From a virus: a DNA stretch of 30,907 bases. Position 1 is the stretch's first letter. The number at the start of each line of letters is the position of its first letter. The stretch is from positions 1-30,907 of the IMG/VR virus record IMGVR_UViG_3300009428_000039; one strand, 5' to 3'. Below, in pieces: positions 2,905 to 3,954 of the stretch. Made by a program: the position numbers and the translations under genes. The notes below the pieces were generated by a model that worked only from the letters and a program-made list of their open reading frames with translations, ran no database searches and was not told the DNA's origin.

Positions 2905-3041
2905 AGATAAGATAGGTACTACACAGTAAATCTGAGAAGTGTAGCTAAGTCATTCCAGAACCACTGAGCTGTATTAAACTACAGTGGATAGAAGGGATAA
3001 ACAAAGCCTGTTGTTTTACTAGTTTTCTCAAAACTAGATAT
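2905..3041 (+). other. Structured noncoding lead-in to the tmRNA
   Basis: No gene is visible. Three hairpins are: CTACAC (2919-2924) with GTGTAG (2939-2944); CCACTG (2961-2966) with CAGTGG (2982-2987); and CTAGTTTT (3019-3026) with AAAACTAG (3030-3037) around a CTC loop, ending 4 bases before the tmRNA. The last lacks a T tract and could mark the 5' processing site of the tmRNA precursor. Confidence 0.45.
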
Positions 3042-3404
3042 GGGGGCGTACTTGGATTTGACCGGGCGGGAAAGATCTATTATGATTTAGCAGCCAGTGA
3101 TGGCTTTAAACATCGTAGGTGAAATATAATAACTGGAAACGAAAACAACGATTTAATCGTAAATTCAACAGAGTCAGCAATGACAGAGATCATGTCTATC
3201 TTCGGATCAGATGTAGTGCTAGAATCACAAATGGCAACATTGGAAGCAGCATAGTACCCGTTTTTCCTAGTTTTTCTCAAAGACTAGGTGGTGGACTCAT
3301 ACAATCTGTATGACCTCGTGACCTTAACACATGAAAAAAGGGAAGCTATATAAAATCGAATGGTGAAGCGTTTTGGGACGAGGGTTCGAAACCCTCCGCC
3401 TCCA
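3042..3404 (+). ncRNA. ssrA: tmRNA (transfer-messenger RNA) with a 39-codon tag frame
   Basis: This is a complete one-piece tmRNA, which frees stalled ribosomes and adds a peptide tag. The acceptor stem pairs GGGGGCG (3042-3048) with CGCCTCC (3397-3403), 7 of 7 including one G-U, with discriminator A3404; CCA is not encoded. CTTGGATTTGACCGGG after the 5' strand matches the conserved tmRNA D-region. The T arm is GAGGG/CCCTC (3380-3384/3392-3396) with loop TTCGAAA. The tag frame starts at GGA 3135-3137 (G-N-E-N-N-D), resembling Bacteroidota tags, and ends E-A-A then TAG at 3252-3254, giving 39 residues instead of the usual 8 to 15 or so. A 10-bp hairpin at 3266-3288 belongs to the pseudoknot region. 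SmpB is not in the window, so host SmpB is presumably used. Confidence 0.9.
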
Positions 3405-3410
3405 CTGATA

Positions 3411-3443
3411 CCCAGGTAGTTACAAGAGCTACCTGGTCTTTTA
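3411..3443 (+). terminator. Terminator-like hairpin after the tmRNA
   Basis: CCAGGTAG (3412-3419) pairs perfectly with CTACCTGG (3429-3436) around a 9-nt loop and is followed by TCTTTTACTTT. It begins 7 bases past the tmRNA 3' end, so it may end the tmRNA transcript, shape its 3' end, or separate it from the structured RNA that follows. Confidence 0.6.
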
Positions 3444-3456
3444 CTTTAAGAAAAAA

Positions 3457-3954
3457 GTACCCATAGAACCTCTCCTGGTAAAGCTTCGGCTCAGTGATAT
3501 GTAATGGAGTTCGTGAGATAGGAGTCGGCCCTAATTCTCATCACTGGTATGTGCTTTCTCAACAAGCGATATACTACGGTCCTAAGTGAAAGTCAGGGAC
3601 CTGACGCAGGTAGAAGTATAAGCAGGGATACGTACTCTCTCAAATACCTTGCATTAGCATAACACGGTTATGTGAGGAAAGCCCTAGAGAAACCTGAACT
3701 ACTACAGAATACGTGTCAAGCTGCGATAAGCTGATTGAGGTGCACGTACCTACGAAATCAGATTTATTCTGTAATACGATATAGGAGTATACATGGTCTT
3801 GAAATCATCGAAGTATACTTACAATGTCGCACCGCCCACCAGACTTATGAGACGGGGAGATGTGACGTATCTAACCCAGGAAAGCTTGATCGCTTCCCTG
3901 GGTACTAAAATCCACAAAGCGTGGTACAAACTGTTAACATATTAGCAATAACAG
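3457..3954 (+). ncRNA. Large structured noncoding RNA, family unknown
   Basis: About 500 nt without a credible ORF, visibly richer in G+C than the flanking genes and dense in helices. These are a UUCG-capped AGC/GCT hairpin (3482-3491), CAGTGAT/ATCACTG (3492-3498/3540-3546), GTCAG/CTGAC (3592-3605), and CATAAC/GTTATG (3658-3663/3667-3672). A branched domain is closed by ACAGAATA/TATTCTGT (3704-3711/3765-3772), enclosing CTGATT/AATCAG and AGGT/ACCT. AGTATAC/GTATACT (3786-3792/3813-3819) and ACCCAGG/CCTGGGT (3874-3880/3897-3903) follow. GTACCCA (3457-3463) could instead pair with TGGGTAC (3899-3905), closing the whole RNA. Size, structure and position beside a tRNA-type gene in a phage recall GOLLD and ROOL RNAs; I cannot show homology. 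Confidence 0.6.

Follow-up and report, generated by a model that had tools for sequence, protein, structure and literature searches.

A complete tmRNA gene with a 39-codon tag frame in a crAss-like phage, and its likely kinship with viral long-tag tmRNAs

The window, by which we mean the whole of the 30,907-base virus record analysed here, encodes a DNA polymerase with Crassvirales (Steigviridae) among its best matches and, on the minus strand, a 2646-aa product that matches the RNA polymerase subunit of Cellulophaga phage phi14:2, this giant RNA polymerase gene and the DNA polymerase gene standing in a crAss-like layout. Judged from these genes and their arrangement, the phage is crAss-like, in line with the preliminary description, which had presented a crAss-like phage carrying its own tmRNA. 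Relatives of its polymerases were taken from IMG/VR (nearest at 43-56% identity) and tmRNA was sought over the full length of their records, most of which lack it; the gene is accessory among crAss-like relatives. A crAss-like relative (L324, record G002) has a probable permuted two-piece tmRNA scoring 41.2 bits, below the cut-off of 47, so both gene forms may occur within one phage clade.

Table 1. Coordinates of the tmRNA gene, its parts and the adjacent upstream element in the window.
Feature	Position	Strand	Basis or remark
Noncoding element upstream of the tmRNA	2907..3010	+	blastn to L334 7904-8029
One-piece tmRNA gene, acceptor 5' end to discriminator A	3042..3404	+	ARAGORN; Rfam RF00023
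Acceptor stem, 5' strand GGGGGCG	3042..3048	+	7/7 pairs with 3397-3403; sequence
Hairpin AGCCA-GTGA-TGGCT, just 5' of the resume region	3092..3105	+	probable first stem of pseudoknot 1
Tag reading frame, 39 codons, GNENNDLIVNSTESAMTEIMSIFGSDVVLESQMATLEAA	3135..3251	+	Rfam resume columns; A at -4; relatives
Tag stop codon TAG	3252..3254	+	sequence
Post-tag hairpin CCTAGT/ACTAGG, then GGTGGTGGA stretch	3266..3294	+	probable pseudoknot domain
T arm GAGGG-TTCGAAA-CCCTC, intact	3380..3396	+	sequence; Rfam alignment
Acceptor stem, 3' strand CGCCTCC	3397..3403	+	sequence; Rfam alignment

Two methods agree in confirming a complete one-piece tmRNA at this locus (Table 1), and its RNA architecture is established. 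The preliminary description had read a structurally intact molecule here and proposed a check with the Rfam covariance model and ARAGORN; both call a tmRNA at 3042, ARAGORN over 3042-3405 on the plus strand and RF00023 over 3042-3407 with 72.6 bits (E 1.3e-26, gathering score 47) and a full-length match to the model (1-374), and the fully paired acceptor stem and perfect T arm bear out that reading. The third acceptor pair, G3044-U3401, is the G3-U70 alanine signal, the discriminator A3404 is unpaired, and CCA is absent from the gene. Stems of probable pseudoknots around the tag are visible in the sequence, with poor posterior support there in the Rfam alignment. The hairpin preceding the resume region is replaced by AGTCA/TGACT at the equivalent place in the relatives L321 and L683-L686, a compensatory change; the post-tag hairpin arrangement recurs in related RNAs with stems altered yet paired, and the GGTGGTGGA stretch is also present in phage relatives. 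A DNA search of the window tmRNA region against GenBank phages gave no match. ARAGORN made a second call, a permuted tmRNA at 3315-3753, which was discarded, as it overlaps the real gene and scored 12.9 bits with the Rfam permuted model against a cut-off of 47.

The upstream element (TTCCAGAAC-ACTGAGC ... GTGGATAGAAGGGATAAA) is conserved in the crAss-like L334, where no tmRNA was found at the site matching the window locus. Directly after the tmRNA, the noncoding segment 3440-3960 folds better than 100 of 100 shuffles (z -2.5) and is possibly another structured RNA; it gave no Rfam match, and no relative was found in any fetched locus save the window itself.

The tag frame is likewise established. 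The frame starts at the resume codon GGA (3135-3137), with an A at -4 (3131), and the Rfam alignment places GGAAACGAAAAC on the conserved resume-codon columns; a covariance fit in another frame with an early stop, which would have spoken against the 39 codons from GGA3135 to TAG3252 given earlier, was thus not found. ARAGORN keeps the frame but places the tag start eight codons further on (VNSTES..., 31 aa). By our own estimate the chance of a single open frame of 39 codons is about 0.15, which is not improbable; the weight for the frame comes from the open frames in relatives. When tags were reread from the homologous resume codon, they measured 37 aa in L321, 31 in L322, 35 in L380, 38 in phi14:2 and 24 in L320. 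The four loci that have in common with the window the 5' element CAGTGATGGCTTTAAACATCGTAGGTGA (L683-L686, of which L684 lies on the same contig as L321) have open tags of 42, 37, 34 and 32 residues. Long open frames are kept in L321, L322, L380, phi14:2, L683-L686, Calle, phi38:1 and FpV4, in at least 128 loci altogether, and no homologue with a broken frame was found, L476 and L500 merely being cut by the end of their stretch. Both tests named in advance as able to overturn the long tag therefore failed to do so.

BLAST with the phi14:2 and L380 RNAs brought up tmRNAs, most of which lack annotation, in Cellulophaga phages Calle, phi38:1 and phi40:1 as well as in Flavobacterium psychrophilum phages. 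They carry a 5' element, GAGAGATAACTG N1-6 AAACTAAGGTGA, which occurs in at least 120 stretches of viral contigs (at least 128 loci once earlier loci are added) and has no match in 84,980 bacterial and archaeal species genomes; within the searches made, the family is restricted to viruses. Among the matches listed, 124 of 128 loci have tags of 24-45 residues (79 distinct peptides) with an A-N-M core, Q-[IV]-x-A-N-M-x-x-V-[FHY]-[SN]-[IL]-[IL], or in its looser form with x for [FHY]; tag lengths overall range from 24 to 49 aa with a mode of 35, again among the matches listed. The 49-aa tag (L431) is without the core, and L505 joins the family once its tag start is corrected. Since A-N-M served as the anchor of this count, the independent evidence for the core is the conservation of its Q (82 of 82 distinct coding sequences) and V (81 of 82). 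Nearly all tags end in hydrophobic-Ala-Ala, with AA at the end of 73 of the 79 distinct peptides, and in nearly all family loci the resume codon lies 11-13 bases past the conserved 5' element and has an A at -4. The named members belong to Crassvirales (phi14:2), Pervagoviridae (Calle, phi38:1 and phi40:1) and Fipvunavirus (FpV4-like phages), and a crAss-like polymerase was found in three of 50 family records, many of which are fragments. The tmRNA has probably moved between phage groups.

The pattern GGAAACGAAAACAAC was dropped, none of its 105 viral-contig stretches being called a tmRNA by ARAGORN. A general T-arm pattern brought in many ordinary tmRNAs, some of which may be host copies from sites of prophage integration, and its loci were therefore left out of the length statistics. 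Applied to 126 loci, ARAGORN called 74 tmRNAs, many with the start placed inside the tag; long viral tags are overlooked or truncated by a standard gene finder. Among the Cellulophaga and Flavobacterium phage genomes looked at, only those of Calle have a tmRNA annotation, which in Calle_1 sits about 50 bases downstream of the gene. In GenBank, phi14:2, FpV4 and FPSV-S29 (from the set L329, L395-L399) carry no tmRNA feature where the gene lies, and in phi38:1 and phi40:1 its opposite strand is annotated as coding for a hypothetical protein.

Conservation of the family core is strongest in the tag frame. In frame its pN/pS is 0.38 (0.18 for close pairs), versus 0.79 and 1.28 when the frame is shifted, and the tag frame stays open over a median of 35 codons, the other two over 6 and 11, all of these being counts that treat related sequences as independent, with no formal likelihood test. 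For close pairs the whole tag has a pN/pS of 0.61, so that its flanks are freer and constraint is loose outside the core. These values indicate that the core is under in-frame purifying selection and that the peptide is what is conserved. The RNA itself is also constrained. The stem count covered 69 distinct matches with both ends located, or 68 real ones after removal of a spurious 24-base match; all of these have G3-U70, all seven acceptor pairs form in 67, and the five T-stem pairs form in every case, with several pair types. Compensatory changes in the acceptor and T stems point to selection on the family RNA as a tmRNA.

The tmRNAs of potential hosts are of a different kind. A match was obtained in all 30 Bacteroidota genomes tried, with RF00023 scores of 117-161 bits, and 26 of the 27 host tags given by ARAGORN have nine residues, mostly GENNYALAA, the other being an evident miscall. 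Bacteroidota ssrA (RF00023) resembles the window gene in its one-piece form, G3-U70 acceptor stem, T arm, G start and AA end, whereas the latter has 39 tag residues, 72.6 bits and a different 5' region. By tblastn, a phage tag found a match in 35 of 50 phage records and in none of 395 Bacteroidota genomes. No SmpB gene was detected in the 50 family phage records, the control genomes giving matches, and host SmpB would therefore serve.

On the phage profile the 5' region of the window tmRNA reaches 21.1 bits, against 1.9 for the best of 100 shuffles, and on the host profile 2.9 bits; that of L321 scores 17.0 bits on the phage profile and nothing on the host profile. The exact GAGAGATAACTG N1-6 AAACTAAGGTGA element is absent from the window. 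Its tag has S-A-M where the family has A-N-M and reaches 3.0 bits on the core profile, a value equalled by 52 of 500 shuffles, and we do not count it as a carrier of the A-N-M core. With a phage-type 5' region and a tag lacking that core, the window RNA is best called a divergent relative of the family rather than a core-bearing member. The preliminary description had seen a Bacteroidota tag with about 30 codons inserted; the gene is instead one instance of a long-tag tmRNA type that is widespread among viruses. The Bacteroidota-like G-N start that it had noted is shared in part, G-K, D-N and D-K starts also occurring. The Glu-Ala-Ala end of the window tag is found in 2 of 79 distinct family tags, and with an end so rare in the family the degradation of tagged products may be weaker. 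AlphaFold gives the window tag as one long helix (mean pLDDT 72), which carries little weight for a 39-residue peptide. Strong amphipathicity was rejected as a trait of this tag, its moment being just 0.18 versus 0.47 (strong) for the family core.

Tags of tmRNA have been treated as short degrons, and a 2025 tmRNA database that covers RefSeq viruses gives tags of two residues and a most frequent length of 10 residues (PMC11915505). The files of that database may well contain some of the long-tag sequences described here. Long phage tags as such are already known, as in mycobacteriophage ET08, our stand-in for Bxz1 in this comparison, whose tag (ATDTDATVTDAEIEAFFAEEAAALV) has 25 aa. Like the window gene, the tmRNA of this cluster C1 phage (Bxz1 group) is phage-encoded, in one piece and long-tagged, but its sequence is unrelated (no score on the phage profile), its host is actinobacterial, and its shorter tag ends in V. 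The tmRNA of OM43 phage Melnitz is also phage-encoded, but is permuted, two-piece and of alphaproteobacterial type; in the paper on it, 402 phages are counted as having tmRNA genes, and it is suggested that host proteins are tagged selectively (PMC9004378). Related to the window RNA are the viral tmRNAs of Calle/phi38:1/phi40:1, phi14:2 and FpV4/FPSV, with tags of 30, 38 and 35 residues, which have the A-N-M core where the window has S-A-M and a diverged 5' element. No description of long tags in Bacteroidota phages was found in the open-access literature.

We favour, with a probability of about 0.65, a working phage tmRNA that adds a 39-residue tag and is a divergent relative of the viral long-tag group. 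The host would add CCA to the phage RNA and its AlaRS would charge it through G3-U70; host SmpB would then bring the charged tmRNA to ribosomes stalled in infection, where translation would resume at GGA3135 and append the tag. In the E. coli tag, the C-terminal residues are recognised by ClpX and an adaptor binds the N-terminal part. The ends of the phage tags keep the host logic, with a G-N-like start and a hydrophobic-Ala-Ala terminus (Glu-Ala-Ala in the window) that is probably a degron of the ClpX type, and the window terminus may leave room for altered degradation. In most members the core would be what a protease adaptor, a chaperone or a phage partner recognises, altering the fate of tagged proteins. 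A part in exit-tunnel arrest is disfavoured, given how widely the spacing between core and stop varies.

As possible roles of the tag, the preliminary description had offered an effector peptide, an altered degron and a diversion of ribosome rescue. A core that aids degradation is our first choice and an effector peptide the second, the present evidence fitting either. In the latter case, which we consider unlikely, the middle of the tag would be a functional peptide (targeting, protective or inhibitory) put on host or phage proteins rather than part of a degron. The core does show sequence conservation, lies well away from the C-terminus and does not occur in host tags, and the segments downstream of it look, by eye, swapped between phages; however, the hydrophobic-Ala-Ala ends of nearly all tags argue for proteolysis, and no known peptide with the core was found among phage records apart from the tmRNAs themselves.

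Two further explanations were considered. Conservation could lie in the RNA rather than the peptide, with the long frame a spacer in place of a pseudoknot and the true tag a short one further downstream where ARAGORN puts it; this would fit the shorter tags of that program and the variable RNA lengths and post-tag pseudoknots. It is very improbable, as synonymous change is favoured in the tag frame only, many ARAGORN starts, which are inconsistent among close relatives, fall downstream of the core, and the spacing of the resume codon and its A at -4 are kept at nearly all loci. Less probable still is a host-derived or decaying copy, acquired for example via an integration site, with the long frame left by chance. 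It is true that tmRNA genes commonly serve as integration sites (PMC11915505, PMC3029335), and the gene is patchy, several relatives, L334 included, being without it; yet the window gene is complete at both ends, its 5' region scores much higher with the phage profile than with the host one, the family stems are kept by compensatory change, and no close relatives with broken frames or stems were found.

Beyond the favoured reading of a working long-tag tmRNA, we tentatively propose, as a possibility we would not yet bet on, a virus-only tmRNA lineage that spans unrelated Bacteroidota phage groups and whose rescue attaches a conserved functional peptide of 30-45 residues with exchangeable parts, the window being a divergent branch with a peptide of its own. 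Viral tags are three to four times as long as those of hosts, mostly with a selected core, which suggests that the tag itself acts in infection. As members occur in cultured Cellulophaga and Flavobacterium psychrophilum phages, the question of why phages carry tmRNA is directly testable.

Long frames were also met elsewhere. Two related viral tmRNAs of another lineage, L159 and L184, have frames ANDNVDMEFAPSVAEADEILAKFGYVEEEALQPVA and ANDDIDMEVALSVAEADEILAKFGYVEEEALQMAV (35 aa each, reread by eye), so that long tags occur outside the GAGAGATAACTG-type family too. A Bacteroides genome has a second tmRNA (L669 4316-4694; G133:C52:118817-119195) with the frame GKNKIKAWGNKVSAKAANVINMFAQPAVRFSAAA (34 aa), adjoining RNase H-like and Band 7 genes; here a long tag lies on a bacterial contig, perhaps in a mobile element. 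The motif VIN[LM]F is common to the L669 tag and the short viral tags of L146 and L192.
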